64,000 nt of DNA from Myxococcota bacterium (GCA_022710975.1 JAKLGA010000010.1:62001-126000), one strand, 5' to 3'. Numbered from the stretch's first letter, positions 5,554 to 43,767 are shown. Numbers and translations: made by a program. Notes: generated from the letters alone by a model not told the origin.

Positions 5554-5590
5554 TTGCATGCTTGATAGGCGCAAGGATTGGGGTGATCCG

Positions 5591-17500: not shown

Positions 17501-17653
17501 CTGGGGTTGATGCTCTTCGCCCCTCGGGCAGACGTGACCCTGGAGAACAACGCCCTCCTGCGCGGTGGCCTGGTGACCAGGGATCTCACGTTCCGCAACC
17601 ACTTCCGCCTGATCGGCGCAGGGGAGACTCTGGGGACGACGGGCTGTCCGTAG
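5591..17653 (+). CDS. Giant secreted protein: M23-like peptidase domain, Ig-like repeats, FG-GAP propeller, C-terminal beta domain
   Basis: The 4,020-residue product starts at the ATG at 5591 (signal peptide MMKYLVGVIIVGIATISVNVSG; GGGGTGAT upstream). An earlier in-frame start at 5474 overlaps the previous gene and is less likely. Residues 47-148 hold the M23 (lysostaphin-type) metal-ligand pattern, HNGVD (H47, D51) and HLHF (H146, H148). Ig-like and Cys-rich segments follow, then a ThuA/GATase-like domain (about 700-930, ILGAGVYPATFGLLAEFG). Macroglobulin/CARDB-like repeats come next, several opening TDRDVYxxGD (about 1286, 3076, 3269). About eight FG-GAP-type DLDGDGxxEV motifs form a likely propeller (about 1919-2290). 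Five roughly 80-residue cadherin-like repeats (about 3356-3753) precede a terminal domain rich in ENNA/RNHA/NNAL turns. Codons are AT-rich up to about 7640 and GC-rich afterwards. Its role may be cell-wall or adhesion related; this is inference. Confidence 0.88.
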   Translation: MMKYLVGVIIVGIATISVNVSGYEWPGRNIVRVTGVVGEAREARRFHNGVDMAYPNCTPIYHVLANGYCRRHRMMDSTRHLPAPWVSVDAFLDESESQMAAYVHLSANFNDNCGKDCDCDIDMCENGEPVEGGPIGAVCGYRFPQHLHFIHGPRDEGSRLGGEYNPLLQSNLDAYLDTVPPYMEGVWPGETPFVELCPEDNEADLDEAICQGRVFQTNQDYTIVSGKVDAVVRAKDFYTPEPGGVADVGTRTGVFALGFGVADEAVGYWYREPEQRIQFTANPASLANALVFRTSSPPQDERMPIEYIVTNDMFRIGLPVPGVLLDSGWNTLESDSEEDQNDAESISDAAFPDGKYSFVPCVWDVSENYACVRKSVIVDNFKPKVRMITIRGVGASIEHLAKIGDVVLVEILFDQEMDSDVKPTIRLNESGEEIATSGEWVKGYSGIIDTYAVSIRMPQLQTQLSKEQQMTIVRVKGLGTEDRDISTELSVVDDEEKTPIVLWADLVRPMPSVASWVGPVVECGDLEVIPALEDEPDRLSLEGESVPLDQRLGTSVLYIQKVFPAMSIAALDLGGLNERVDFSGFEGGSEYLWYIVLQDSAGNYDQISENENDGDRQTFNTFTVAECDNEAGCDIVACKSDERTCERIPNCPPPGSGETCKSYNCVSSTRGEGRCLAVATDDCDPSPDPNDPDYDPRSQDWTDDNVDLADQVPTMENVTNLRPDSEIAILGAGVYPATFGLLAEFGEDARLVGTRLAPASLAGVKLLIVPSGALRNQEPQGLAEGLRAFAETGGQVIVMGQPYGRDFGAVPGPVAGYGWQEDLMCWIGNLYFGEDYAEHPVMSSVGTSSSGRGVMTLPVDGHFTGWPGDAEVWLRRVSTNQAAVVRYPIGLGAIMVSAAYLDHDRVRAFRLRSAEAVRGGQLLDEEEFFRDLVTWLKDPRPEAEFARVSDGQANVPLVLHVTNDSPGAERAAAAKIMVMDPSRTYTMWQAEVPVDLVEGASADLSLAVPFDWTRFHQGAGGSPFYPPVGIWHTQIELLDAEGNVIRDDREALSGRFVVPAEAGEDAWFDPNEVTLSILVERSSMPAGMEGRYRFEIGNQGPAARRLRLELNRFGRRELLLAATAEVAPSDMWVPEYSTGDSVTGEFQVVARVFDADTDELLAMARKSLWFLEFPVAMSAEALPEYPGAGAVVSVEVGFRNLTDVDLSGTLELEMDGLTAPWTAPVTLGPAADGRVTTTVQVPDLAWPGETYLVIARMIAADGQPLGNAQDPIVVYQPGIRPWVEVRTDRDVYQRGDELRVEVEVRNEGEEGGALPYKLTVGDFGSFEGEMTLAQGGTSVLNRQVTVPADLVRGGDVAIMFETWQATGFKHVTVEVPSLAIVPVVQALPGGILVTGEVRQTGTAPLAGALGCRLWGPGGSLEAEQVFLDFVVPGTVGQPFTCTLPVGALERGAYLVEVVASSPQAVSEARVERQLAADFEMLQADLVCMDLAANGACLTSFLLGEDFGRPVHLVNRGDFFYPEVRVSRSLPEVGIAWEAVASLPPRSVVEVRPAAAVPVPFFQNAASWIECPSVITPTSMELQALVPGGFSELGSETALVLTPLLELEVTQVAYDACSGAPLQISVAGSARGPSLAGPLDVRVLVEVPDAGLSREVQATLAPGAASFSQDLELSVPSALGPGTHAVRPRWLRPVVAPHLLPFAATVAGGSFAVGGAGLDATLVTRPLAAGEAGLLALSNPGQTGGWVDWRILLADAGGRRWLELEGGGELAGCGGAGLDLPFTVPDGLQGGRYSLSLETSLDGGSPSWRRWDLDLAGLEAGMDLWTSQDVYRSGLPVQGLGTLTGGPLPIAGGSLHLEVVRLAAGAGVAAPGWPAFGAGPARTMAVDGAGEISSPRLLWEQSPAELSGGWPGERGPAVADLTGDGAADLVVASVDGQVRALRGSDGGLLWTYTAPAGLSASVPAVDDLDGDGLPEVAVLLRDRVVALRGADGSLAWEAMLRTAVGVGAPAPLVLADTDGDGLTEVAHFEHYRVWRCMAPPFNNICFWVNVPFLQVRNGATGVPTWDSLSSGLPAEPVTYRALAAADLDGDGADEVVLSTASGLVALAASGELRWSTAIPGCSQTTSAVVADLDAAPGQEVLVGCSSTSGDVSFLALVSGATGALLRSVGLGVYDSASTPLSVADLDGDGDQDAVLGLGSTVVAADLTSGAMWSLPLSAALGAGLPVADLDGDGSADVLVLDSTAWESLRLVSGATGAVLWDSAASGLSLAGTAHPALGDLDGDGWLEVALVRANNSTGEGAYLALDSLTTGGPAGSGGVVEEVLWTTDRPQGLAATEALPLDEAVGALAATGQLWWRGWLTSAAGQELARDAYPFWIVDGDLAVSIAAAPEVARVGGTVAVSGEVRELGATAAPGVVLEVRAEDGGLLFQDSMDLAASEVRPYTFTTGAGAVGVHDIKATVTGTGGDTAQAWARYRVTASALEVAFTGPEVVGDEPFALLATLRNAGELPLALTAAVSGGSDPRSFDLGPGQTLEESYPRAIAADTTFTLAVTGEESWSGSHLVRFGLAARMLAEPLAGYPVDEIVSIPWSVENLGELGHAYGTELQVVTLGGVLVERWAETIELAASGDPAGWDRYLGTVELFLPEGGYRIQHAVEHGQAGEEAFEVQMPLGRGEIPMAAVYRAGPVDVPWTLENLAGTAGTFELLLSVERGGEVLATSSPSVSLGPAGGGSALFTDRMTVWLEPGTYLARLQGARLESEVIASFEVLADRALSVALEETGTGCGHTLTASLRNLGFEAFSGRLRARAPGWEWSAPVGLGGQGGTAVVEIAPDLSAAPAGPAWVEVEILDGAGILLATADRSVTVRGGMCALAARPDRVAALAGEDAVFPFVLSNAGDHHATCRLELGALEDQGPELAVRGLAPCEQQSVPFDYLLPWDLEAGEIPLPYTLSVADGESAGGERGFVILEVQGVEIRVTSSLDRCHYLPGETAQLELLVESLGVPPQGPVVLAVEYPSFSTEELVSLEAGPVSLSYEIPEVQEAWERIMISVRLLSGRSVFMDGRRVRASDLGVWVCTDRDVYDPGDTVQVTFGADEVCDLRLRDFTTGWEHTAALEPGGEGTASFLLPAGMRRGTHVLEYGCGSLSHMHPYEVRGAWVRFLSLTADSLQYAPGDPLELDAVVESASAFEGWMRCKGLRPDGTTFPIEARAVSLDQGVQRLLFHGSMDTDHLGRHRLDCAVFLDDSEEVFLAQDWTWAQVGDADILGIATDKPVYESGEEGATATAMVFGHALGVEVVLDLDGAEVLRQVVDLEGHASLSVALSREQIWALGEHRIEGTMTADGLVGQASVAFLTQDTIPPAIEITGVTEGGLHPAPVSPAVAVTDHNPRLQRIALDGMAWGSGMAVWAEGPHRLVVEAEDLAGNLSRREIGFSVDAASPRISILGVADGECYAAMVSPVVQVVDPSLAWVEVLLDGAPFVSGTPVGEGEHLLQVVAEDLAGHRTEASVSFSVDLTDPVVAILGVQDGLVTEADVSPSASFSDAHLTLGRAYLDGQALEGTPLVSAEGEHRVQAFALDCAGRVGQASAWFSIDRSPPELELWLIADGACYAPPVQPAFWAWDPNLTSLEAWLDGAPFESGDPVEAEGTHQLDVAAVDSLGHRSEASASFLLDGTPPLLTVAGVTDGAVYTQPVAATFEAADDNLSELAALLDGLPYLAGTPVSAGGEHELVVWASDCAGNTSSEVVRFSLRTSTRPVFAYTVCAEGLVVMENFSGVSQDAEGRGGDLVSRGDLSMENHAFIADDATAGGDVRLDNNCEIGGDLHLVGQLTLLHSSEILGQVVDIDGPVPSCLCGYDLDGVLAYRAEVNDNTLLAADPGIAPFLVEGSLVVTKNNRVTLPAGIYYFRSVVLRNNARLELAEGAQVELYIEENLQVENNARIDHPMARAADLWVVTGTDSDAGELLTLRNHAGLGLMLFAPRADVTLENNALLRGGLVTRDLTFRNHFRLIGAGETLGTTGCP

Positions 17654-17792
17654 CCATTCCCTCTGTCTGGACCTGGGTACAGCTGGTCGAACGGGCGAAA
17701 AAGCTTGCCGTCTGCCTGGAAGTATATGAAGATTGCTGCAAGTCATCTTGAATGTGACTAACAGCAACTACGATATGCCATGGATGGGCGGC

Positions 17793-18617
17793 ATGACCAA
17801 GGAAGCGGCAGGACCCAACAGGGACGTGAAGGAGAGGCTCAGGCGGCTCGCCAAGGGCAGCCAAGGCCACCTGGTGACGACCCGCCGCGCGGCCGAGATC
17901 CTCGGGCTCGAGCCACGTGCTGCCCACCTGGCGCTCGGTCGGCTCCTGAAAGCAGGTTGGCTGGAGCGGGTGAAAAGGGGCCTGTTCCTCATCCTGCCGC
18001 TGGAGGCTGACCGGAAGGGCGCGGCCATCGAGGACCCGTGGATCCTGGCCCGTGAGCTGTTCAAGCCCTGCTACATCGGGGGCTGGTCCGCCGCCGAGCA
18101 CTGGGGACTCACCGAGCAGATCTTCCGCGAGACCTTCGTGGTCACGAGCGCCTACGTGCGCAGCTCCACGCAGTCCCACCTGGGAGCCGCTTTCCATCTG
18201 GTGCGGGCGAGGAGCCCTCGCGTCGCCAGCGTCTCGACCCTCTGGCGAGGACAGGAGCGCATCGCGGTGTCCGACCGGGAGCGGACTCTCGCCGATGCCC
18301 TGGCCATCCCCGCCTGGGTCGGCGGGGTTCACCACCTGATCGACATGCTGCGGTCCTACCGCTCCAGTCCGGAATGGCAACCTTCCCGGCTGCTGGCGCG
18401 CGTTGGGGAGGTGAGCTCGGGCGCGGCCTTCAGGCGGCTCGGCTACCTCGCCGAGGCGGTCCTGGGCGAGCGCGGAGCGTTGGTGGAGGCCTGCCTGGCG
18501 CGACGCACGACCGGCAACGTGCGCCTCGAACCTGGAGCCAAAGGAAAGGGGAAGCTGTCCACCCGCTGGCGCCTGTGGATCAACGTCGACCTTCTCCAGG
18601 GCGGTAGCCTGTCATGA
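17793..18617 (+). CDS. AbiEi-family antitoxin-like regulator, second AbiE locus
   Basis: This 274-residue protein has an N-terminal winged helix (GHLVTTRRAAEILGLEPRAA, then RLLKAGWLERVKRGLFLILP) and an AbiEi-type domain (GGWSAAEHWGLTEQIFRETFVVTS and SDRERTLADALAIP). The frame is open further upstream to a TTG at 17733, with ATGs at 17775, 17784 and 17793. I took the last because it sits just before the conserved helix, but the start is uncertain. The stop overlaps the ATG of a truncated toxin gene by the same 4-bp ATGA seen in the first AbiE locus. With the toxin destroyed, this antitoxin is an orphan: it may be under decay, or it may serve as a repressor or as immunity to a related toxin. 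Confidence 0.82.
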   Translation: MTKEAAGPNRDVKERLRRLAKGSQGHLVTTRRAAEILGLEPRAAHLALGRLLKAGWLERVKRGLFLILPLEADRKGAAIEDPWILARELFKPCYIGGWSAAEHWGLTEQIFRETFVVTSAYVRSSTQSHLGAAFHLVRARSPRVASVSTLWRGQERIAVSDRERTLADALAIPAWVGGVHHLIDMLRSYRSSPEWQPSRLLARVGEVSSGAAFRRLGYLAEAVLGERGALVEACLARRTTGNVRLEPGAKGKGKLSTRWRLWINVDLLQGGSLS

Positions 18618-19102: not shown

Positions 19103-19614
19103 GAGTGGTCCTCCCTTCCGTTTGAGGCTTGGCTAGGCAAGGTTCGTGCCTTCCGAATGAGCACGCGAAACCACCCGGAAAAGGTCCCTTCCGGAATCTC
19201 CCTGGGTGCCGAAGGTGGTCGAAATCTTGGCCAACGTGGTCGAAATCCTGACCAGGCGGCCCGGTGGTTTTTTCCCATCTCGAACTACTCGACGCACTAC
19301 GTGCAAGAGGCAATGACCAATTGTGGAATCCGGAGATCCGGGCCACGAAGTATTCCAAAGCGTAGTGTTCGAATCATCGCCTGTGTAATACGCCTTTCCT
19401 TTTGTCTGGCGGTCAGTTGCTCGGCAAACAACGGTTGCGTTAGGTGTGGGGTGAATACAGGGGACTGGGGGGACCCCAGGCCGAAACAGAAAAGCTGGGG
19501 GCGCGCGATCTAAAATCCCATGCAGAAGCCATGTTCCGCGCCATGGCGTTTTCATGCGGCGCGCGTTTCGTTTTCCGATCGTCCGCTGGCACGAGCCTTG
19601 CCATTGCTCCTCGC
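19103..19614. other. Intergenic control region with 21-bp-spaced direct repeats
   Basis: No convincing gene is seen. The 12-mer GTGGTCGAAATC occurs twice, at 19215-19226 and 19236-19247. The 21-bp period places both copies on the same face of the helix, which suits a dimeric or multimeric regulator. Composition is patchy, with an AT-richer part near 19270-19430. The region probably carries divergent promoters for the ribbon-helix-helix gene and the excisionase-integrase pair. Confidence 0.45.
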
Positions 19615-20127
19615 ATGATCGAGCACAACCTCAGACCTCTTCCCGTGATCGATGGGCCGACCTCTTGCAGGATCGCCACCCGCGGTCTGGCCGACGCCGC
19701 CGAGAGCCTTGGACTCCTCGGAGAGCTGATGGCCGAGCTGTCCAGGCGGCAAGGCAATGGCGCTGGGCTGCACTCGCCTCAGGAGGTGCCCGCGCCTGCG
19801 GACACCTCCCAGGTCCTGAGCGTCGCCGAGGCCATCGGATCGGTGCTCCGGCGGATCTCCTGCCCACCGACATCCGCCTGGAACACGGCCGAGCAGGCCT
19901 CGGTGTACCTGGGCTTGCCCTCCCGAAAGGCGCTCTACCAGGCAGTCCGCCGCGGGCTGGTGCCCGCCCATCGCATCGGCCGGCGCCTGCGCTTCCGGGT
20001 CGCCGAGCTCGACCGTGTGCTCGGGGTAGCACGGACCGATCAGGCCATCGCGGAGTCCCTTCCAAGCATCCACCGAACGGCAGTATCATCGGCAGGCACG
20101 ACGCCCGCTTGCCGAGGAAGGAGGTAA
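19615..20127 (+). CDS. Excisionase-like helix-turn-helix protein
   Basis: The frame is open further upstream, but I start at the ATG at 19615 (MIEHNLRPLPVIDG), giving 170 residues. The C-terminal part carries a MerR/excisionase-type helix-turn-helix: NTAEQASVYLGLPSRKALYQ, then AVRRGLVPAHRIGRRLRFRVAELDRVL. That is the HTH_17-like pattern used by Xis and other recombination directionality factors. The N-terminal 80 residues are unassigned. The gene ends 5 bp before the recombinase start, so the two are almost certainly cotranscribed. It may direct excision or repress the integrase. Confidence 0.72.
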   Translation: MIEHNLRPLPVIDGPTSCRIATRGLADAAESLGLLGELMAELSRRQGNGAGLHSPQEVPAPADTSQVLSVAEAIGSVLRRISCPPTSAWNTAEQASVYLGLPSRKALYQAVRRGLVPAHRIGRRLRFRVAELDRVLGVARTDQAIAESLPSIHRTAVSSAGTTPACRGRR

Positions 20128-20132
20128 GAGCG

Positions 20133-21218
20133 ATGGGCGTCAGCAAGTACGTGAAGCGAGGCCTGACCCTGTGGCAGGTCGACGAGACGTTGGTGATGCC
20201 GGACGGCAGGGAGAAGCGTTTCAGGAAGCGCTGCATCCCGACCAAGGAGCAGGCGGTGGCGCTGGCGGCCAAGGTTCGCGCGGAGGCTTTCGAGGGGCGG
20301 TTCTTCGACCGGCCCAAGAAGCCCAGCCTGACCGTGGCCGGGCTGTGGTCGCTGTACGAGCCCGTGTCCCAGCGCGAGAACCGTGCGGCCAAGGACGACC
20401 GGTGGCGGGCCAGGCACATCGTCGAGCACATGGGTCCGAAGCTGGCCGCTCTCCTGCACCAGGGCGATGTCGACGACTACCGCACGGCCAGGTCCAGCGA
20501 GAAGACGCGCATGGGCAAGCCGCCGGCTCCGGCCACGCAGGACCTCGAGGTGGAGCTGCTGAAGCGCATGCTCGGCTACGCCGTCAGGTGCAACAAGATC
20601 CCCACGAACCCCCTGGCCAGGGTCAAGCTGCTCAAGAGGCCCAACATCAGGCGGAGCGTCATCGGCGAGGAGGGCTTCGAGCGCCTCTTCGAAGCGGCGT
20701 CGCCGCCGCTGAGGCCCATCCTCCTGGTGGCCTTCGACACCGGGATGCGCCTCCGGGAGATCCTGGACCTGACCTGGGACCAGGTCAGCCTCAAGGAGCG
20801 GACCATCCGGCTCGCGGCCCAGGACACCAAGACGGAGACGGCCAGGGTGGTGATCCTCACCAGCCGCGTCGTCGACGAGCTGAAGCGCCTGCCCCGGCAG
20901 CTCCTCGACCCGAGCGTCTTCACGAACCCGGCCACGGGTCAGGCCTGGCGGGACATCCGCAAGATGTTCTGCGCAGCCCGCAAGACCGCCAAGCTCGAGG
21001 ATCTCTGGTTCCACGACCTGCGCCGGTCCTTCGTCACCCGGGCGCGCAAGCTGGGCGTGCCGGAGTCGGTGGTCATGCGCATGTCCGGCCACAAGACCCG
21101 GTCGGTGTTCGACCGCTACAACGTGGTGGACGAGACCGACGTGAGGGCGGCGGTCGGGCGGCTCGAGGCGGCGGTGCCGGGCGCTGTGCCGGCCGCGGTA
21201 GGGCAGGGGACGACGTGA
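20133..21218 (+). CDS. Tyrosine recombinase (phage/island integrase)
   Basis: The 361-residue product begins at the ATG at 20133 behind a strong GGAGG ribosome site. It has an N-terminal AP2/SAM-like arm region (about 1-80), a core-binding helical domain (about 65-165) and a catalytic domain (about 180-345). The catalytic set is visible: the first Arg in GMRLREIL, Lys in TKTETARVV, HDLRRSFV (His-x-x-Arg), MSGHK and the nucleophile in FDRYN. The order and length fit an active integrase. It lies downstream of an excisionase-like gene and ends about 100 bp from the 3' end of an initiator tRNA gene, the usual attachment target for this family. It probably mobilised some or all of the left part of this window. 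Confidence 0.93.
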   Translation: MGVSKYVKRGLTLWQVDETLVMPDGREKRFRKRCIPTKEQAVALAAKVRAEAFEGRFFDRPKKPSLTVAGLWSLYEPVSQRENRAAKDDRWRARHIVEHMGPKLAALLHQGDVDDYRTARSSEKTRMGKPPAPATQDLEVELLKRMLGYAVRCNKIPTNPLARVKLLKRPNIRRSVIGEEGFERLFEAASPPLRPILLVAFDTGMRLREILDLTWDQVSLKERTIRLAAQDTKTETARVVILTSRVVDELKRLPRQLLDPSVFTNPATGQAWRDIRKMFCAARKTAKLEDLWFHDLRRSFVTRARKLGVPESVVMRMSGHKTRSVFDRYNVVDETDVRAAVGRLEAAVPGAVPAAVGQGTT

Positions 21219-21274
21219 GCCCGAGTCACGTCAAAGTTCCGTCGAAGTTGGGTTTGGTGGGCTCCCACTAAGGC

Positions 21275-21308
21275 GAAGGCCCCACCGGAAAACTCCGATG
21301 GGGCCTTC
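21275..21308. terminator. Strong hairpin between integrase and tRNA
   Basis: A perfect 10-bp stem, GAAGGCCCCA (21275-21284) with TGGGGCCTTC (21299-21308), encloses a 14-base loop that can itself pair weakly (CGGA/TCCG). It sits between the integrase stop and the 3' end of the convergent tRNA gene. There is no long T-run on either side, so it may stop or process transcripts from both directions less efficiently than a classical terminator. Confidence 0.6.
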
Positions 21309-21318
21309 AGTTCTGCTA

Positions 21319-21391
<73 letters not shown>

Positions 21392-21492: not shown

Positions 21493-22191
21493 ATGAACGC
21501 CTGGAGACGCCTCCCGTCCTCCGTCCTCGCGACCGGCGCGCTGTGCCTGCTCGCCGCCGCGTGCACGCCCTCGAAGGACTGCCGCTACGCGGAGTGGGCC
21601 TGCGCGCCCTCGTTCCAGTGCCTCCAGGCCGGAGGCGGCGCCTGGGAGTGCTCCCCCCTGGTCTCGGCTGCCCCGGCGCCCGCCGTGGCCCCGCCGAAAT
21701 CCCTTCCCCCGAAGGCGCCCGGCCCCTGCACCGGCCGCCCCCCCTGCCGCAAGGACGCGCTGGAGTGCACCTGCGACGGCCAGGATCGGTTGCTGACCAC
21801 CGTGTTCGATGGGAACAAGGACGGCGTGAAGGACGAGTGCGCCCGGTACACCTACCCCAGCCCGACCCGGGTCCTGGTCGAGGTGGACCAGGGCTGCGAC
21901 GGCAGCATGGACGTACTCCACACGCACGAGCTCGACGCGGCCGGCAACGAGATCCTCTGGGCGAGCGAGCAGAAGGTGCATCCCGAGAAGACCCTGTACC
22001 GGCGCTACCTCTACGAGCTCGGCGCGCTGGTGGCCACCGAGACCGCCCAGGGCAAGCCCGACAACGTCATCCAGCGCTGCGACTACCAGCCACCGTGCCA
22101 GCCGCCCATCCCCAACCCGACGTGCAAGCCGGTCTGCCGCAAGGTGATGCCGCCTCCCACCAGCCCCGAGACCGCCCCCGAGGTCGATTGA
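21493..22191 (+). CDS. Secreted Cys-rich lipoprotein, function unknown
   Basis: The 232-residue product starts at the ATG at 21493; the open frame upstream runs into the tRNA and is not coding. The signal peptide ends in a lipobox LLAAAC, so it is lipid-anchored. The mature part begins with Cys pairs (CRYAEWACAPSFQC), a Pro/Ala-rich linker, then PPCRKDALECTC and repeated-looking beta segments (DGNKDGVKDEC, VDQGCDGSMDV, DAAGNEILWASEQ) that resemble the RHS/YD-like or calcium-loop turns of secreted proteins. It ends with a Cys/Pro-rich tail. No family was recognised. It is the first gene to the right of the tRNA and probably belongs to the resident chromosome. Confidence 0.8.
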   Translation: MNAWRRLPSSVLATGALCLLAAACTPSKDCRYAEWACAPSFQCLQAGGGAWECSPLVSAAPAPAVAPPKSLPPKAPGPCTGRPPCRKDALECTCDGQDRLLTTVFDGNKDGVKDECARYTYPSPTRVLVEVDQGCDGSMDVLHTHELDAAGNEILWASEQKVHPEKTLYRRYLYELGALVATETAQGKPDNVIQRCDYQPPCQPPIPNPTCKPVCRKVMPPPTSPETAPEVD

Positions 22192-22216
22192 CAGCGCGCT
22201 GATTCGCTGGTATTTT
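22188..22216 (+). promoter_or_regulatory. Sigma70-type promoter of fibre module 1
   Basis: TTGACA (22188-22193) and TATTTT (22211-22216) have exactly 17 bp between them. The -35 box overlaps the stop codon of the preceding gene. The start codon of the module-1 lipoprotein follows 54 bp after the -10. Modules 2 and 3 have similar boxes at the same relative place. Confidence 0.65.
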
Positions 22217-22270
22217 CCCCGAAATTTCACGGTTCATTCGGTTCGCGGTCCATCGGAGGAGGAAGAAGGA

Positions 22271-22636
22271 ATGCGTCTTCTCAGGCTCGTGATCGGTGTT
22301 GCGGCAGCCTGGAGCCTCTGCGTGGGCTCGGGAGGCTGCGACAGCAGCTCCGGCCTGCCCGACCTCGACGGCGCCGATGGTGTGGACGGGGGCGAGGACG
22401 GCGTGGACGGAGGCGAGGACGGCGTGGACGGGGGCGAGGACGGTCAGGACGGCGCGGACGGGACCGACGGTGGCCCGACCGCGGGCGGCCCGACCCGCTT
22501 CAGCGTCACCTCGGGCGGCGGGGAGGCCGAGGGGGCGGGGTACAAGGTGCGCCTCCACGTCGGTGCGCCCCAGCCCATGGGCTCGGCGAGCGGCGCCAGC
22601 GGCTCGGTCGAGGCCGGGCCCGGGGCCAGGCCCTGA
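22271..22636 (+). CDS. Asp/Gly-rich small lipoprotein, module 1
   Basis: The 121-residue product has a signal peptide with a lipobox-like GSGGC, then a low-complexity stretch of repeated DGGEDGV units (about residues 37-70). The conserved tail reads TAGGPTRFSVTSGGGEAEG, continues KVRLHVGAPQPMG and ends in GPGARP. The tail recalls the SGGG...YxLxxxVGQPxxG motif found near the N-terminus or surface segments of many secreted bacterial proteins, but it is shorter. A GGAGGAGGAAGAAGG leader precedes the ATG. The gene lies 60 bp upstream of the fibre gene and is probably cotranscribed with it. It may anchor or escort the fibre at the outer membrane; that is inference from pairing in all three modules. 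Confidence 0.82.
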   Translation: MRLLRLVIGVAAAWSLCVGSGGCDSSSGLPDLDGADGVDGGEDGVDGGEDGVDGGEDGQDGADGTDGGPTAGGPTRFSVTSGGGEAEGAGYKVRLHVGAPQPMGSASGASGSVEAGPGARP

Positions 22637-22696
22637 ACCCAATGAATCAGTCCCGGAAGGAAACAAGGATCTTCTCGAAAGGGTAGGAGAATGAAG

Positions 22697-25303
22697 ATGC
22701 GCAAGCTGACCGTCGTGCTTTCCCTCCTGGCGGTCCTCGGGTTCTCGATGTCGGCGCTGGCCGCGGCGCCGGTGTTCGTGCCGGTGCAGGGCTACCTGAC
22801 CGACGCGGACGGCGCCCCGGTGGACGCCGAGGTGTCGATGACGCTGGTGCTGTGGGACAACATGAGCGGCGGGACGCCGTTGTTCTCGGAGACGCAACAG
22901 GTGCTGGTGGAGCAAGGCTTCTTCACCCTGTACCTGGGCGGGACGGGGACCCCGGCCCTGGATCTGGTGCTGTTCCGGGACCACGGCTCGCTGTTCCTGG
23001 GCGTCAACGTGAACGCCGAGGGCGAGATGGCGCCGCGGCTGCCCCTGGGCACGGTGCCCTACGCGGGCTTCGCCCAGTACGCCGGGGACGCGCTCACGCT
23101 CGGCGGCTTGACCGTGGAGGACTTCCGGCTGGGGACGGACGAGGTGAGCTGGGACGACCTGACCGGCGTGCCGGACACCCTGCTGGACGGGGACGCGGAC
23201 AGCCTGGCGGGCCTGGCGTGCGGGGCGGGGCAGGTGGCCAAGTGGGACGGGGCGGCCTGGGCCTGCGCGGACGACGCGCTGGGCGCCGGGGTGAGCGAGG
23301 CCGAGGTGGACGGGTTCGTGGCGAACAACGGCTACGCGCTGACGGCGGATCTGGCGGCGGTGGCCTTCAGCGGGGACTGGAACGATCTGGTGAACGTGCC
23401 GGCGGCGCTGCTGGACGGGGACGCGGACACCCTGGCGGGGATCGCCTGCGGGGCGGGCCAGGTGATCAAGTGGAACGGGAGCGCCTGGGCTTGCGCGGAC
23501 GACATCGACACGGACACGGACACCGACACGCTGGCGGATCTGTTCTGCGCTCCGGGCCAGGTGGCCAAGTGGAACGGCAATGCCTGGGCGTGCGCGGACG
23601 ACGTCGACACGGACACGGACACCGACACCGACACGCTGGCGGGCCTGGTCTGCGGCGCCGGCCAGGTGGCCAAGTGGAACGGCAATGCCTGGGCGTGCGC
23701 GGACGACGTCGACACGGACACCACCCTCGGCGAGGCCGAGGTGGACGCATACGTGGCGGACAACGGCTACGCGCTCGCGGCGGACCTGGCCACGGTGGCG
23801 ACCAGCGGCGACTTCAACGACCTGGTGAACGTGCCCGCGGGCCTGCTGGACGGTGACGACGACACCCTGGCAGGGCTGACCTGCGCGGACGGCCAGCTCC
23901 CGGCCTGGGACGACACGAACGCGGTGTGGGAGTGCGTGGACGACCTGGACACGGACACGCTGATGACGCTGGCCTGCCTCGACGGTCAGCTGGCGAAGTG
24001 GGACAGCCTGGCCGGGATGTGGGCCTGCGCGGACGACATCGACACCGACACGGACACCCAGCTCACCGAGGCCGAGGTGGACGCGATGGTCGCGGACAAC
24101 GGCTACGCCATGGCCAGCCACAACCACGACGCGGTCTACGCGCTGCTCGGCCACGACCACGACGCGGACTACGCGGCCGTCGGCCACAACCACGACGCGG
24201 CCTACGTGAACGTGGGCGAGGCGAACAGCATCAACTCCTCCATGATCGTGGACGGGGCGGTGGTGCTGGGCACGGACACCAGCGGCGCGTACGACGCCAC
24301 CGCGGACACCATCGCCGACGACGGGGTGATCTCCGATGCCGAGGCCGCTGACAACCTGACCATCAACTGGGTGGGCTTGCAGGGCCACCCCGCGCCCTGC
24401 GGCGCAGGCCAGGCGGTGACGGCGGTGGGCGACGCGCTGACCTGCACCGCGTTCGATACCACCGCGGACACCATCGGCGACGACGGGACCATCGTCTCCG
24501 CGGAGATCACCGATGGCACCATCGCCATCGCCGACATCAACACGATCGCCTTCGACGCGCGCTACGCGCTGTCCGGCCACGCCCACAACTACGACGCGAC
24601 CTACGTGAACGAGGGCCAGGCCAACAGCATCACCAGCGCCATGATCGTGGACAACACCGTCGCCAGCGCGGACATCCTGGACTCGACCATCACCACCAAC
24701 GACATCGCGGCCGACACCATCACCGCGGCCGACATCGCCGCGGGCGCGGTGGGCACCTCCGAGATCGCGGACAACACCATCCTTGGCGGGGACATCCAGG
24801 ACGGGACCATCACCTTGGCCGACATCAACACCGCGAGCTTCGACACGCGCTACGCCAGGCCTGCGGGCACAGACAGCAATATCCAGCTGGTCTGGGGCTC
24901 GACCGCAACCGACTGTGCTGGTGCTGGCGCCGCCTACTATGTCTACGAGACCATTCCAGCCACCTGGCCTAGCTCCGGCGGTGCGAGTTTCAGCAAGACC
25001 TACCATGTACGAGCTGTCTTCACCAACGGCAGCGTTGCGGCGCGGACATACTACCTCAACGGCCTGTTCTATGGTGCCGCAACCCAACATGCGACCTTCT
25101 GGTTCTCCAATCATCAGGCCACCCACATCACAGCCGGCGGCGCACCGACTCGCTTTGCCTACAGCACGAGCGGCGCCACGACCGACATCCCCGCGGGCGG
25201 CACGTGCACGAACTACTCGGGCGGCCAGGTCACGATCACCCCGAGCGAGGCTACCGGGGTCATCGTCATCGAGAGCACGGTCTGGGTCCTCTACTATCAC
25301 TGA
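22697..25303 (+). CDS. Fibre-like repeat protein, module 1
   Basis: The 868-residue product has a signal peptide (MRKLTVVLSLLAVLGFSMSALA) and a conserved N-terminal domain (about 25-135, VPVQGYLTDADGAPVDAEVS and VPYAGFAQYAGDA) common in bacterial fibre-type surface proteins. The stalk has six copies of a two-Cys unit, LAGLxCxxGQVAKWxGxAWACADD, interleaved with tail-fibre-like GDWNDLVNVPA turns, (Asp-Thr)n runs, HNHDA repeats and ADIAxxTIT units. The last roughly 140 residues form a unique tip with lower repeat content, ending VLYYH. I start at 22697, not at the ATG at 22691, because module 3 lacks the first ATG and has the second one at good distance from AGGAG. It probably projects from the cell surface; binding partner unknown. 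Confidence 0.85.
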   Translation: MRKLTVVLSLLAVLGFSMSALAAAPVFVPVQGYLTDADGAPVDAEVSMTLVLWDNMSGGTPLFSETQQVLVEQGFFTLYLGGTGTPALDLVLFRDHGSLFLGVNVNAEGEMAPRLPLGTVPYAGFAQYAGDALTLGGLTVEDFRLGTDEVSWDDLTGVPDTLLDGDADSLAGLACGAGQVAKWDGAAWACADDALGAGVSEAEVDGFVANNGYALTADLAAVAFSGDWNDLVNVPAALLDGDADTLAGIACGAGQVIKWNGSAWACADDIDTDTDTDTLADLFCAPGQVAKWNGNAWACADDVDTDTDTDTDTLAGLVCGAGQVAKWNGNAWACADDVDTDTTLGEAEVDAYVADNGYALAADLATVATSGDFNDLVNVPAGLLDGDDDTLAGLTCADGQLPAWDDTNAVWECVDDLDTDTLMTLACLDGQLAKWDSLAGMWACADDIDTDTDTQLTEAEVDAMVADNGYAMASHNHDAVYALLGHDHDADYAAVGHNHDAAYVNVGEANSINSSMIVDGAVVLGTDTSGAYDATADTIADDGVISDAEAADNLTINWVGLQGHPAPCGAGQAVTAVGDALTCTAFDTTADTIGDDGTIVSAEITDGTIAIADINTIAFDARYALSGHAHNYDATYVNEGQANSITSAMIVDNTVASADILDSTITTNDIAADTITAADIAAGAVGTSEIADNTILGGDIQDGTITLADINTASFDTRYARPAGTDSNIQLVWGSTATDCAGAGAAYYVYETIPATWPSSGGASFSKTYHVRAVFTNGSVAARTYYLNGLFYGAATQHATFWFSNHQATHITAGGAPTRFAYSTSGATTDIPAGGTCTNYSGGQVTITPSEATGVIVIESTVWVLYYH

Positions 25304-25376
25304 GGTGGAGCCGCGCACGTCCGCACTCCTCTCCCTGCGCATCCTGAGCTGACCCGCGCCCGCCGGGCGAGTGCGA

Positions 25377-25405
25377 TTGACTGTCCCAGGGTGTCCTGTT
25401 ACCGT
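25377..25405 (+). promoter_or_regulatory. Sigma70-type promoter of fibre module 2
   Basis: TTGACT (25377-25382) and TACCGT (25400-25405) are spaced by 17 bp, in the gap after the module-1 fibre gene and 54 bp before the module-2 lipoprotein start. The same arrangement recurs in modules 1 and 3. Confidence 0.6.
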
Positions 25406-25459
25406 TCCGCCCAACACTCGATGAGCCTTGGCGTTGTCGCTTCTAGGAGGTCAGGAAGC

Positions 25460-25837
25460 ATGCGTTTCATGAGGGTGCTCTCGAAGTTCGGGTTGAGCTT
25501 GGCCTGGGTCTTTTTCCTGGGCCTGGCGGGATGCGACAGCGGCAGCACGAACCCGCCGGTGGACGGCGGGGATGGCGAGGACGCCACGGACGGCGCGGAC
25601 CTGGACGGCCAGGATGGCCAGGACGGCGTGGATGAGGTGGACGGGGCCGACGGTGCGGACGGGACCGACGGCGGCCCGACCGCGGGCGGGCCCACCCGCT
25701 TCTCGATCACCTCGGGCGGCGGGGAGGCCGGGTCGGCCAACTTCAAGGTGCGCCTGAACGTGGGCGCGCCGCAGCCCTACGGCTCGGCGAGCGGCCCGAA
25801 CGGCGCGGTCGAGGCCGGGCCCGGGGCCAGGCCCTGA
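25460..25837 (+). CDS. Asp/Gly-rich small lipoprotein, module 2
   Basis: The 125-residue product begins at the ATG at 25460 after AGGAGG. A longer frame from 25391 would include the promoter leader and is unlikely. The signal peptide ends in lipobox GLAGC. It has the low-complexity DGGDGEDATDGAD region and the conserved C-terminal RFSITSGGGEAGSANFKVRL motif shared with module 3, then AEAGPGARP-like residues shared with module 1. It is therefore a mosaic of the other two copies. It lies 60 bp upstream of its fibre gene, with an almost identical leader. Confidence 0.82.
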   Translation: MRFMRVLSKFGLSLAWVFFLGLAGCDSGSTNPPVDGGDGEDATDGADLDGQDGQDGVDEVDGADGADGTDGGPTAGGPTRFSITSGGGEAGSANFKVRLNVGAPQPYGSASGPNGAVEAGPGARP

Positions 25838-25897
25838 ACCCAATGAATCAGTCCCGGAAGGAAAACAGGATTTTCTTGAAAGGGTAGGAGAATGAAG

Positions 25898-28288
25898 ATG
25901 CGCAACCTGACCGTCGTGCTTTCCCTCCTCGCGGTTCTCGGGTTCTCGATGTCGGTGCTGGCAGCGGCGCCTGCCTACGTACCGGTGCAGGGCTACCTGA
26001 CCGACGCGGACGGCGCGCCGGTGGACGCCGAGGTGTCGATGACGCTGGTGCTGTGGGACAGCATGAGCGGCGGGACCCCGGTGTTCTCGGAGACCCAGCA
26101 AGTGCTGGTGGAGCAGGGTTTCTTCACCCTGTACCTGGGCGGGGCGGGCACCCCGGTCCTGGATCTTGCGATCTTCCGCGACAACGGCTCCCTGTTCATG
26201 GGGGTCGCGGTGAACGGCGAGGCCGAGATGGCGCCGCGGCTGTCCATGGGCTCGGTGCCCTACGCGGGCTTCGCCCAGTACGCCGGGGACGCGCTCACAC
26301 TCGGCGGCTTGACCGTGGAGGACTTCCGGCTGGGGACGGACGAGGTGAGCTGGGACGACCTGACCGGCGTGCCGGACACCCTGCTGGACGGGGACGCGGA
26401 CGCGCTGGCGGGGCTCGCCTGCGGGGCGGGCCAGGTGGCCAAGTGGGACGGGGCGGCCTGGGCGTGCGCGGACGACGCGCTGGGCGCCGGGGTGAGCGAG
26501 GCAGAGGTGGACGGGTTCGTGGCGAACAACGGCTACGCGCTGACGGCCGATCTGGCCGCGGTGGCCTTCAGCGGGGACTGGAACGACCTGGTGAACGTGC
26601 CGGCGGCGCTGCTGGACGGGGACGCGGACACCCTGGCGGGGATCGCCTGCGCCTCGGGCCAGGTGATCAAGTGGACGGGCGCGGCCTGGGGCTGCGCGGA
26701 CGACATCGACACGGACACCGACACGGACACGCTGGCGAACCTGTTCTGCGGGGACGGGCAGGTGGCCAAGTCCGTCGGGGGCGTCTGGGCGTGCGCGGAC
26801 GACGTCGACACGGACACGGACACCACCCTCAGCGAGGCCGAGGTGGACGCGTTCGTGGCGAACAACGGCTACGCGCTCTCGGCCGATCTCGAGCTGGTGG
26901 CCTTCACCGGCGACTACAACGATCTGCTGAACGTGCCCGCGGGCCTGCTGGACGGCGACGACGACACCCTGGCGGGGCTGACCTGCGCGGACGGGCAGCT
27001 CCCGGCCTGGGACGACACGAACGCGGTGTGGGAGTGCGTGGACGATCTCGACACGGACACGCTGATGACGCTGGCCTGCCTGGACGGCCAGGTGGCCAAG
27101 TGGGACGGGCTGGCCGGCGCCTGGGCGTGCGCGGACGACATCGACACCGACACGAACACCCAGCTCACCGAGGCCGAGGTGGACGCGTTCGTGGCGAACA
27201 ACGGCTACGCCATGGCCAGCCACAACCACGACGCGGTCTACGCGCTGCTCGGCCACGACCACGACGCGGACTACGCGGACATCGGCCACAACCACGACGC
27301 GACCTACGTGAACGAGGGCCAGGCTGACAGCATCAGCTCGGCCATGATCCAGACCGGCGCGGTCGGCAGCCTCGACATCGCCGACGGCTCCATCGGCAGC
27401 ATCGACATCGCCAACAACACCATCGACTCCCAGGACATCCTGGATAACTCCATCGTGCTCGCCGACGTGGCGCTGGCGAGCTTCGACTCCCGCTACGCCC
27501 TCACCGGCCACAACCACGACGCGGCCTACGTGAACGTGGGAGAGCCGAACAGCATCGACACCTGGATGATCGTGGACGGGACGATCAGGGGCTTCGACAT
27601 CGAGGATGGCTCGATCGGCACCGACGACATCGGCGATGGTCAGGTTAGCATGTTCGACATCGCCATCAACCAGATCCGCACCCAGCACATCTTCGACGGC
27701 GAGGTGAGCAGCGCGGACATCGCAAATGACACCATCACCGCGGCCGACATCGCCTCGGGCGCCGTGGGCACCTCCGAGATCGCGGATGTGAGCATTGTGC
27801 TCGCCGACATCAGCACGGCCAGCTTCGACACGCGCTACTCCCTCGTCACCCACAACCACGACGCCACCTACGTGAACGAGGGTCAGGCGAACAGCGTGAC
27901 CCCTGCGATGGAGACCATGGAGGCAGGAGCGGAGTTCGGGCAGGGTTTCGCGCAGATTGACCCGACCGGGACGGAGCAGACCGCGGCGACCATCAACATG
28001 ACCTGGCCAGGATCCGGCCAAGTCACGGTCATGGTCGATGCCACTGTCTACTGCGCGACCAATGCCTGGTTCGACATGAAGATCAGGCAAGGCGCCTGGC
28101 ACACAGGGAACTGGGTCCGCGGTGTGCCGAGGGCCGGTGAGTACGTCAACATGGAACTCTCGGGCACGTTCCCGGTCGTCGGTGCTGGGGCCGGTGACAT
28201 CACCGTGACCGTCTGGGATAGCCCGGACAACTGCAATTTCTTCGCGGTGCACAACTTCTCGGCCATCTATACTCCGACTCGCTACTAA
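25898..28288 (+). CDS. Fibre-like repeat protein, module 2
   Basis: The 796-residue product has the same signal peptide and N-terminal domain as module 1. The stalk has five of the two-Cys GQVAKW...WACADD units (six in module 1, four in module 3), (Asp-Thr)n runs, HNHDA repeats and a long series of ADI/EDGSIGxxDI units. The C-terminal tip (about the last 125 residues, from EAGAEFGQGFAQIDPTG) is unrelated to the other tips and ends TPTRY. It contains three Cys and alternating beta-type segments. The start was chosen as in module 1. About 300 bp are identical with module 3, showing recent exchange. It is likely surface-exposed; the tip probably defines what it contacts. Confidence 0.85.
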   Translation: MRNLTVVLSLLAVLGFSMSVLAAAPAYVPVQGYLTDADGAPVDAEVSMTLVLWDSMSGGTPVFSETQQVLVEQGFFTLYLGGAGTPVLDLAIFRDNGSLFMGVAVNGEAEMAPRLSMGSVPYAGFAQYAGDALTLGGLTVEDFRLGTDEVSWDDLTGVPDTLLDGDADALAGLACGAGQVAKWDGAAWACADDALGAGVSEAEVDGFVANNGYALTADLAAVAFSGDWNDLVNVPAALLDGDADTLAGIACASGQVIKWTGAAWGCADDIDTDTDTDTLANLFCGDGQVAKSVGGVWACADDVDTDTDTTLSEAEVDAFVANNGYALSADLELVAFTGDYNDLLNVPAGLLDGDDDTLAGLTCADGQLPAWDDTNAVWECVDDLDTDTLMTLACLDGQVAKWDGLAGAWACADDIDTDTNTQLTEAEVDAFVANNGYAMASHNHDAVYALLGHDHDADYADIGHNHDATYVNEGQADSISSAMIQTGAVGSLDIADGSIGSIDIANNTIDSQDILDNSIVLADVALASFDSRYALTGHNHDAAYVNVGEPNSIDTWMIVDGTIRGFDIEDGSIGTDDIGDGQVSMFDIAINQIRTQHIFDGEVSSADIANDTITAADIASGAVGTSEIADVSIVLADISTASFDTRYSLVTHNHDATYVNEGQANSVTPAMETMEAGAEFGQGFAQIDPTGTEQTAATINMTWPGSGQVTVMVDATVYCATNAWFDMKIRQGAWHTGNWVRGVPRAGEYVNMELSGTFPVVGAGAGDITVTVWDSPDNCNFFAVHNFSAIYTPTRY

Positions 28289-28328
28289 TCCATCCCGAGC
28301 CGGGCCCACCCTCTCGCCGCGGGTCAGG

Positions 28329-28357
28329 TTGACTGCCTGATCCTCGTCTGCTAGCTT
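28329..28357 (+). promoter_or_regulatory. Sigma70-type promoter of fibre module 3
   Basis: TTGACT (28329-28334) and TAGCTT (28352-28357) are separated by 17 bp, 45 bp upstream of the module-3 lipoprotein start. Position and boxes match those of modules 1 and 2. Confidence 0.6.
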
Positions 28358-28402
28358 CACACAACCATCGATCCGCCAATCACGCCGCGGAGGAGGCCCG
28401 CC

Positions 28403-28771
28403 ATGCGCTCGGTCCGGAATCTGCCCATGCTGGTCCTCGGTCTCGGCCTCGTCCTATGCACCGGCCTCGCCGGTTGCGACAGCGGCAGCACGAACCCTCC
28501 GGTGGACGGCGGGGATGGCGAGGACGCCATGGACGGCGGTGAGGACGGCGCGGATGGCCTGGACGGCGGGGATGAGGTGGACGGGGCCGACGGCGCGGAC
28601 GGGACCGACGGCGGTCCGACCGCGGGCGGGCCCACCCGCTTCTCGATCACCTCGGGCGGCGGGGAGGCCGGGTCGGCCAACTTCAAGGTGCGCCTGAACG
28701 TGGGCGCGCCGCAGCCGATGGGCACGTCCACCGGCGCCGGAAGCACGGTCGAGGTCGGCCCCGGTCGGTGA
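28403..28771 (+). CDS. Asp/Gly-rich small lipoprotein, module 3
   Basis: The 122-residue product has a signal peptide with lipobox GLAGC, a DGGEDGADGLDGG low-complexity region and the TAGGPTRFSITSGGGEAGS motif found in module 2. The end differs (TSTGAGSTVEVGPGR). A GGAGGAGG ribosome site precedes the ATG. It is paired with the fibre gene 55 bp downstream, as in the other two modules. The acidic stalk would extend the protein away from the membrane or bind calcium; neither can be shown from sequence. Confidence 0.82.
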   Translation: MRSVRNLPMLVLGLGLVLCTGLAGCDSGSTNPPVDGGDGEDAMDGGEDGADGLDGGDEVDGADGADGTDGGPTAGGPTRFSITSGGGEAGSANFKVRLNVGAPQPMGTSTGAGSTVEVGPGR

Positions 28772-28826
28772 GAACCGAACCTCGAGGAAGAGAGCCAGGA
28801 TTTCTTTCAAGGGACAGGAGAAGAAG

Positions 28827-30959
28827 ATGCGCAAGCTGGCCGTGGTCCTCACCTTCTTGGCTGCCCTGGTCTTTGGCTTCTCGGCCCTGGCGGCGGCGCC
28901 GGCCTACGTGCCGGTGCAGGGCTACCTGACCGACGCGGAAGGGAACCCTGTGGACGGTGAGGTGAGCCTGGAGCTCCGGCTGTGGGACGCCATGATCGGC
29001 GGGGCGCAGGTGTTCACCGAGACGCAGTCCGTCCTGGTGGAGCAGGGCTTCTTCACGCTCTACCTGGGCGGTACCGGGACCCCGGCGCTCGACCTGGCGG
29101 TGTTCCGGGACCAGGACAATCTGTTCCTGGGGATCGTGGTGAACGGCGGAGCCGAGCTCCAGCCGCGCCTGTCCTTGGGCTCGGTCCCCTACGCGGGCTT
29201 CGCCCAGTACGCCGGGGACGCGCTCACGCTCGGCGGCTTGACCGTGGAGGACTTCCGGCTGGGGACGGACGAGGTGAGCTGGGACGACCTGACCGGCGTG
29301 CCGGACACCCTGCTGGACGGGGACGCGGACGCGCTCGCGGGCCTGATCTGCAGCGACGGCCAGGTGATCAAGTACAGCTCCGCGGCCAGCGCCTGGGAGT
29401 GCGCCGTCGACTCCACCGGCGCCGGGGTGACCGAGGCGGAGGTGGACGCGTTCGTGGCGAACAACGGCTACGCGCAGGAGAGCGATCTCGCCCCGGTGGC
29501 GTTCACCGGGGAGTACGCCGATCTGGCGAACGTCCCGGTCGATCAGGACACGCTGGCGGGGATCGCGTGCGGGGTGGGGCAGGTGATCAAGTGGACGGGG
29601 GCTGCCTGGGCCTGCGACGACGACATCGACACGGACACGGACACCACCCTCAGCGAGGCCGAGGTGGACGCGTTCGTGGCGAACAACGGCTACGCGCTCT
29701 CGGCCGATCTCGAGCTGGTGGCCTTCACCGGCGACTACAACGATCTGCTGAACGTGCCCGCGGGCCTGCTGGACGGCGACGACGACACCCTGGCGGGGCT
29801 GACCTGCGCGGACGGGCAGCTCCCGGCCTGGGACGACACGAACGCGGTGTGGGAGTGCGTGGACGATCTCGACACGGACACGCTGATGACGCTGGCCTGC
29901 CTGGACGGCCAGGTGGCCAAGTGGGACGACGTGGCCGGCACCTGGGCGTGCGCGGACGACATCGACACGGTGAACACCGGGGACATCACCGGCGTGCTCA
30001 CCCCGGCCGGCAGCGGCCTCGCAGGCGGCGGCACCACGGGCGACCTGAGCCTGTCGGTGAGCGGGGTGACCTCGGCCATGATCCTGGACGGCGCCATCGG
30101 CGGCGTCGACATCGCCAACGACACCATCGACTCACAGGACATCCTGGACAACTCCATCGTGCTCGGCGACGTGGCGCTGGCGAGCTTCGACAGCCGCTAC
30201 GCGCTGGCCGGCCACGACCACGACGCGAGCTACGCCGCCCTCGTCCACAACCACGACGCGACGTACGTGAACGAGGGCCAGGGCGACAGCATCACCTCGG
30301 CCATGATCGCGCCCGACACCATCACCGCGGCCGACCTCGCCGCAGACGCCGTGGGCGCCTCCGAGATCGCCACCGGCGCAGTGGGCACCCTCGAGATCGC
30401 GGCCGGCGCGGTCGGCGCGGCGGACATCAACACCAGCGAGGTCCAGCGGCGGGTATCGGGCACCTGTGTCGCGGGGTCGGCGGTCCGGACGGTCAACGCG
30501 GACGGGACGGTCGTGTGCGACACCGGCCCGAACGCGATCGGCTCGGTGTTCGAGATCGTTGGCGGCACCGGCTGGGGATGCGCCAGCGCTCTTGGCTACA
30601 CCACCAACTTCGGAATCGCCACGTATCTGTACAATGGGGCTGCAGCCACCTTCTACTGGTACAACGCGATGCCAATCCCGGATACCTATGCTGGCAGGAA
30701 TGTGGTCCTCGACACGGTGACAGTGCGTTACCTCTGCTCCGCGGGAGAGTACATCACCCGAACAATCATCGGTAGCCAGCTGGCCACGGGGAGTTACAGT
30801 TACTTGACGTTTGTGGATACGGACTACTCAGGCTCGGGTTCCTATGTCCTGCCCGTGAACCTTGCTTTCGACGGTGCTGCGCTCCTTGCGCTGCAGGTTG
30901 CGTCGGATGATGCGGCTGGTTATTGCATGGTTACATGGCAGGCGTCTTACCACTACTAG
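28827..30959 (+). CDS. Fibre-like repeat protein, module 3
   Basis: The 710-residue product starts at the ATG at 28827 behind AGGAGAAGAAG, the copy that fixes the starts of modules 1 and 2. The N-terminal domain is the same but more diverged (GYLTDAEGNPVDGEVS). The stalk has four two-Cys units, one VNTGDITGVLTPAGSGLAGG segment typical of phage-tail-like fibres, HDHDA/HNHDA repeats and ADLAADAVGASEI-type units. The tip begins near VQRRVSGTCVAGSAVRTVN and has about 170 residues with five Cys and many aromatics, ending SYHY. Codon use in the tip is less GC-biased than in the stalk. It is presumed surface-exposed. Confidence 0.85.
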   Translation: MRKLAVVLTFLAALVFGFSALAAAPAYVPVQGYLTDAEGNPVDGEVSLELRLWDAMIGGAQVFTETQSVLVEQGFFTLYLGGTGTPALDLAVFRDQDNLFLGIVVNGGAELQPRLSLGSVPYAGFAQYAGDALTLGGLTVEDFRLGTDEVSWDDLTGVPDTLLDGDADALAGLICSDGQVIKYSSAASAWECAVDSTGAGVTEAEVDAFVANNGYAQESDLAPVAFTGEYADLANVPVDQDTLAGIACGVGQVIKWTGAAWACDDDIDTDTDTTLSEAEVDAFVANNGYALSADLELVAFTGDYNDLLNVPAGLLDGDDDTLAGLTCADGQLPAWDDTNAVWECVDDLDTDTLMTLACLDGQVAKWDDVAGTWACADDIDTVNTGDITGVLTPAGSGLAGGGTTGDLSLSVSGVTSAMILDGAIGGVDIANDTIDSQDILDNSIVLGDVALASFDSRYALAGHDHDASYAALVHNHDATYVNEGQGDSITSAMIAPDTITAADLAADAVGASEIATGAVGTLEIAAGAVGAADINTSEVQRRVSGTCVAGSAVRTVNADGTVVCDTGPNAIGSVFEIVGGTGWGCASALGYTTNFGIATYLYNGAAATFYWYNAMPIPDTYAGRNVVLDTVTVRYLCSAGEYITRTIIGSQLATGSYSYLTFVDTDYSGSGSYVLPVNLAFDGAALLALQVASDDAAGYCMVTWQASYHY

Positions 30960-38104: not shown

Positions 38105-38294
38105 GCTAGCATTTCTTCGCCCTGGGACACGGGCTCGAAATGCTAGTATTTCTTCGCCCTGGGATGCGGGCTCGAAATGCTAGCTTTTCTTCGCCCTGGG
38201 ACACGGGCTCGAAATGCTAGCATTTCTTCGCCCTGGGACACGGGCTCGAAATGCTAGTATTTCTTCGCCCCGGGACTCGGGCTCGAAATGCTAG
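38105..38294. repeat. Five tandem 37-bp hairpin repeats
   Basis: Five head-to-tail copies of a 37-bp unit (38105-38289) end in a partial sixth (GCTAG, 38290-38294). Copies differ at only a few positions. Each unit begins GCTAGCATTTC and ends GAAAT, which pairs with ATTTC across the unit, while an inner GCCC pairs with GGGC, so each copy forms a hairpin. The array fills the gap between convergent genes, and the stop codon of the minus-strand gene (TAG, 38291-38293) lies in the terminal GCTAG. It probably acts as a bidirectional transcription end or RNA-stability element. No spacers are present, so it is not a CRISPR array. Confidence 0.9.
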
Positions 38295-43738: not shown

Positions 43739-43767
43739 CGGGCTGCGCTCTCCCTGGGAGGACTGGC

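Follow-up and report, generated by a model that had tools for sequence, protein, structure and literature searches.

The locus analysed here raises the question of why a gene for a small lipoprotein should stand directly ahead of a gene for a long fibre-like protein three times in succession, and of what the two products have to do with each other. In the window (the whole 64-kb stretch of DNA that was analysed), three such gene pairs follow one another in tandem, all on the + strand, and all six ORFs of the modules proposed by an earlier sequence-only reading were found. Module 1 consists of a 121 aa lipoprotein (22271–22636), with the lipobox GSGGC, an Asp/Gly-rich spacer and a C-terminal tail, and an 870 aa fibre (22691–25303); module 2 of a lipoprotein (25460–25837) and a 798 aa fibre (25892–28288); and module 3 of a 122 aa lipoprotein (28403–28771) and a 710 aa fibre (28827–30959). 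For lipoprotein 2, the ATG at 25460 is a likelier start than the GTG at 25391, as AGGAGG lies ahead of the former and the latter falls within a promoter-like site. The gap between lipoprotein and fibre gene is 54–55 bp in every pair. The three lipoproteins, which are 78–90% identical at the DNA level, possess a lipobox (GGC, AGC), an Asp/Gly-rich middle and a C-terminus that is almost constant among the three window copies.

Each module has its own promoter-like site, recognised by pattern match on the + strand: TTGACA-N17-TATTTT at 22188–22216, TTGACT-N17-TACCGT at 25377–25405 and TTGACT-N17-TAGCTT at 28329–28357, in each case 45–54 bp upstream of the lipoprotein ATG. The pattern TTGACW-N17-TANNNT has exactly three matches in the 64-kb window, one per module, where 0.02 would be expected, a comparison that serves as a guide and not as a test, as the pattern was composed after the sites had been seen. 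The presence of one such site per module suggests that every lipoprotein-fibre pair is a transcription unit of its own.

The fibres share most of their length. A Sec signal peptide can be read from the sequence of each, followed by an N-terminal domain (22769–23092, 25970–26293 and 28899–29222) and a stalk, the units of which repeat both within and between the window fibres. Fibres 1 and 2 show 91.5% DNA identity across their first 933 bp, and fibres 2 and 3 show 94% across 424 bp of the stalk, so that the proposed sharing of signal peptides, N-terminal domains and stalks, often at the DNA level, is borne out. This similarity ends at the tips (24869–25303, 27923–28288 and 30537–30959): mutual comparison of the last ~120–150 residues of the three fibres revealed no significant similarity, and no counterpart of the tips turned up in Pfam or among PDB sequences. 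The GC content at third codon positions (GC3) falls at all three tips, from 0.959–0.970 before the tip to 0.707–0.810 within it (0.97 to 0.78 in fibre 1, 0.96 to 0.81 in fibre 2 and 0.96 to 0.71 in fibre 3; Fisher p 1.5e-13, 1.1e-7 and 3.9e-17, respectively), which suggests a foreign origin and a more recent arrival of the tips.

Two additional fibre genes, L019 and L020, are found elsewhere in the genome, and the L020 fibre carries a homologue of tip 3 (46% identity over 171 aa) on an N-domain that is 66–69% identical to the N-domains of all three window fibres. No further relatives of the window tips were found in the 195 genomes of the phylum that were searched. Both the low GC3 of the tips and this single homologue might be expected if the divergent C-termini were the degenerating ends of ordinary repeat-rich secreted proteins. 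We consider such decay barely credible, as the tips are unbroken frames of 120–150 aa with C-termini rich in aromatic residues, tip 3 is conserved on a second fibre, and the unlinking of tip and base extends across the phylum. Among 54 full-length N-domain proteins, N-domain identity is at least 50% in 33 pairs, only about 6 of which have similar tips. The fibres L095 and L097 of a single genome have N-domains that are 85% identical and unrelated tips, while collar-type tips that are ~45% identical occur in relatives on N-domains of just 26–35% identity. These comparisons show that tips have been exchanged across a conserved base, as the sequence-only reading had supposed for the three window fibres; the reverse arrangement in homologous loci, with conserved tips on variable stalks, was looked for across the phylum and was not what we found.

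Neither Pfam nor the PDB yielded a sequence match for the three window fibres. The N-terminal domains are, nevertheless, recognised by the NCBIfam profile NF053851 (Bdello_MAT_N), with E-values of 1.2e-4, 1.7e-5 and 1.5e-5 for fibres 1, 2 and 3, and down to 1.8e-9 for relatives from the phylum. In a comparison by hhalign, a profile of 68 N-domains from the phylum aligned to four Bdellovibrio N-domains with a probability of 97.1 (E 1.2e-10). The Bdellovibrio loci were reached with a hand-written consensus query, and the fetched loci alone are used as evidence; the independently fetched proteins score 218–227 bits with NF053851, and one of them matches PDB entries of MAT proteins (8ol4, 8ond, 8ojn). 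We conclude from these profile comparisons that the fibre base and the MAT N-domain are distantly homologous. As the scores of the window fibres (22.0, 24.7 and 24.8 bits) are below the curated cutoff of 60 bits, we call them MAT-like rather than members of the MAT superfamily. AlphaFold models of the N-domain for the three window copies (pLDDT 49) were too poor for use.

The MAT proteins are the mosaic adhesive trimer fibres of Bdellovibrio bacteriovorus (Caulton et al. 2024, PMC10769870), trimeric and prey-binding, with swapped tips, and the surface element that holds their N-domain was described as yet to be identified. Both kinds of protein possess a signal peptide, a homologous beta-rich N-terminal domain followed by a repeat unit of the type CxxGQxxxWxGxxWxC, and a long fibre stalk. 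In both, the base is conserved and mosaic non-S74 tips are exchanged between near-identical stalks (Bd2133/Bd1334 being the MAT example). The statement of the sequence-only reading that no named system was known can thus not be upheld for the fibres. The window fibres differ from MAT fibres in that no S74 domain is recognised in them and in that each has a lipoprotein partner, none being mentioned for MAT fibres (PMC10769870). A YadA-like C-terminal membrane anchor, as in trimeric autotransporters (type Vc), gave no Pfam match on the window fibres.

Another candidate source of such proteins is a phage. Fibres 2 and 3 have stalks that are recognised by PHROG 892, a tail-fibre profile (residues 545–664 in fibre 2), phage tail fibres have similar stalk repeats, and some relatives end in phage-type tips (Collar, PF07484; gp53-like C-terminal domain, PF21882). 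An integrase gene (19554–21218) is located beside tRNA-Met. From these features, the array might be what is left of the tail-fibre genes of a phage or tailocin, but we regard this as very improbable, since the window fibres are secreted with a signal peptide and have lipoprotein partners, and no other phage structural gene lies near the array, its neighbours being a tRNA, the integrase, an AbiEi-like ORF and an ankyrin protein. Fibre 2 and the tips have no match in 50,697 phage records, and N-domain queries gave no match on the viral contigs scanned. The integrase is, moreover, on the far side of the tRNA gene, the 3' end of which points away from the array, and no tRNA-type direct repeat was found that would link the array to the neighbouring integrase element.

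At 19554–21391, the tyrosine integrase gene (PF00589) directly adjoins the tRNA-Met gene, and an AbiEi-like antitoxin ORF is located at 17733–18617. An integrated element is probably present to the left of tRNA-Met; no flanking repeat for it was found in the window.

What sets the MAT-like fibres of the window apart is their lipoprotein partner. Of 195 genomes from the phylum, 70 contain N-domain genes, and these genomes cover 48 of 90 genera. An automatic scan with a simple pattern, rather than a trained predictor, detected a lipobox ORF within 330 bp upstream of 25 of 45 N-domain genes; among 202 other genes the number was 15 (p 2.6e-12). The lipoproteins of relatives vary greatly, from ~65 to ~500 aa in mature form, with middles made of DG repeats, Cys-rich segments or Pro/Asp repeats, and end in a common tail of ~45 residues (GG(G)...S.NY.L....G.P.......S..Y.L..G). 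In the window this tail motif occupies 22493–22624 in lipoprotein 1 (TRFSVTSGGGEAEGAGYKVRLHVGAPQPMG...; profile E 2.4e-14, with a profile that contains this very sequence), 25694–25825 in lipoprotein 2 (5.6e-14) and 28634–28765 in lipoprotein 3 (1.9e-16). A profile built from 14 tails taken from pairs gave about two dozen credible matches in 58 genomes, nearly all adjoining an N-domain gene. Credible tails came from 14 genomes, each of which also has N-domain genes; of the 32 genomes lacking N-domain genes, none has such a tail (p 1e-6).

As this first profile had been trained on pairs, the test was repeated on genomes outside the training set. A tail HMM made from the earlier set only had 13 matches at E<0.01 among 1043 ORFs, 11 of them in the ORF ending 80–141 bp upstream of the N-domain; the other two are in loci that had been included on the strength of a tail match. 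In the held-out genomes, a tail-bearing lipoprotein precedes about 28 of the 53 untruncated N-domain genes, a count for which 23 were flagged by the scan, two of these were judged spurious, and seven missed cases were added by eye. The lipoprotein is thus a conserved partner, as had been proposed, for about half of the N-domain genes of the phylum, held-out genomes included. Far from occurring as often without fibre genes as with them, tail lipoproteins are only rarely orphans: three cases are known, two in the 58-genome set (L084 and L138; at G024:C63 and G020:C84) and a third real-looking one from later loci (L199). The tail motif was not found in the three Bdellovibrio genomes searched, and the word "lipoprotein" has no occurrence in the MAT paper (PMC10769870), for which reasons the pairing of MAT-like fibres with a lipoprotein may be new.

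Tail and N-domain also vary together. The correlation between their distances (Mantel r 0.48) exceeds that of all 5000 within-family shuffles (mean 0.25, maximum 0.38), so that, in these alignments, tail and N-domain are shown to co-vary beyond family relatedness, which tips do not. As tips are unlinked from N-domains while tails co-vary with them, the stable co-inherited unit is tail plus N-domain, the tip being the part that is exchanged. One might still suppose that the lipoprotein is a separate, co-transcribed surface or envelope protein that does not bind the MAT-like fibre at all and acts, say, as a decoy, as part of a matrix or coat, or as a shield against the cell's own fibre; orphan tail lipoproteins do exist, and the docking of tail to fibre is our interpretation. 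We think this rather unlikely, as the only conserved part of the lipoprotein is its tail, which tracks the N-domain and not the tip across families, and as tail genes are rarely found away from N-domain genes.

Of several possible explanations for these data, we favour, with moderate confidence, one in which a lipid-anchored, flexible tether docks the base of the fibre, leaving exchangeable recognition tips to face outward. Each module would be transcribed independently as a two-gene unit. The lipoprotein, for which export and lipidation can be read from the sequence, would be kept in the outer membrane, and its low-complexity middle would serve as a flexible spacer. The C-terminal tail of ~45 residues, probably a beta-strand structure, would dock the N-terminal domain of the neighbouring fibre, which would project from the cell, probably as a trimer, and may bind something on other cells or surfaces with its C-terminal tip. 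Tail and N-domain would be inherited together, while tips would be exchanged, in part at least via foreign DNA.

A fibre-specific assembly or export factor would equally be encoded in fixed pairing with its fibre and co-vary with it, and a lipoprotein gene upstream of the fibre gene suits a chaperone as well. Such a factor would bind the N-domain, either within the periplasm or once it has reached the outer membrane, and aid folding, trimerisation or membrane crossing of a fibre that is then held otherwise or released, and the existence of N-domain genes without a lipoprotein (about half) would fit this. We consider this role unlikely, as most of the lipoprotein is spacer, low in complexity or rich in Cys and differing greatly in length, and only the C-terminal tail is conserved, an architecture that is tether-like rather than chaperone-like. 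The sequence-only reading had left the choice between export and anchoring undecided; we infer that anchoring is the more likely function and favour export less.

Docking by a lipid-anchored tether has to accommodate the N-domain genes without an adjacent lipoprotein. They include both additional fibre genes of this genome: no lipoprotein gene is present upstream of L020, and the intact fibre gene of L019 is preceded by a short ORF (L019:7084-7287) that has kept the end of a lipoprotein tail, has no signal peptide, and reads as a deletion remnant of a lipoprotein gene. With about half of the bases unpaired, either fibres can use a lipoprotein in trans or they do not always need one; the first possibility would account for the unpaired fibres and the orphan lipoproteins alike. 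Co-variation of tail and N-domain can also result from linked inheritance without contact. An AlphaFold model of tail and N-domain as one chain, obtained by reading module 1 through its stop codons under table 4, had a pLDDT of 40 and was too poor for use.

From the three Bdellovibrio genomes, in which the tail is absent, it follows that the lipoprotein is not a general MAT anchor in Bdellovibrio. We propose, tentatively and with somewhat more doubt than conviction, that the tail lipoprotein is the kind of surface anchor that MAT-type fibres have lacked so far, a dedicated docking tether that fixes the conserved base while tips are exchanged freely, in use throughout the phylum and replaced by something else in Bdellovibrio. 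The MAT paper leaves open how its fibres are retained by the cell, and the lipoprotein is a concrete candidate for the anchor. A short conserved tail encoded beside the fibre gene also offers a defined and cheap binding test, and with the base domain in so many genomes of the phylum, base and partner together allow a recognition repertoire to be catalogued. TasL of Vibrio (PMC9040878) is likewise a putative lipoprotein and promotes contact with specific target cells; compared by description, it is itself proposed to make the contact, and no N-domain fibre partner is described for it. We have set it aside as a counterpart of the tail lipoprotein.

Several further features were noted. In G020, a relative, some N-domain proteins (L092, L093 and L096) terminate in a hydrophobic helix followed by basic residues, which would suit anchoring by the C-terminal end instead. 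The window contains an open frame of 4059 aa (5474–17653) with FG-GAP and Big_13 repeats, which is a very large putative surface protein. The ORF at 3997–5553 has a GC3 of only 0.42 and a lipoprotein-like start, lies in a GC-poor stretch (46% over 4–6 kb) and is likely to be acquired DNA. At 38105–38294, a 37-base unit is present in five tandem copies that are 92% alike, and at 43481–44228 units of 12 and 24 bases, of the type GGCGAGGATGCG, are repeated in a long array that would be rich in Asp, Glu, Gly and Ala if translated.
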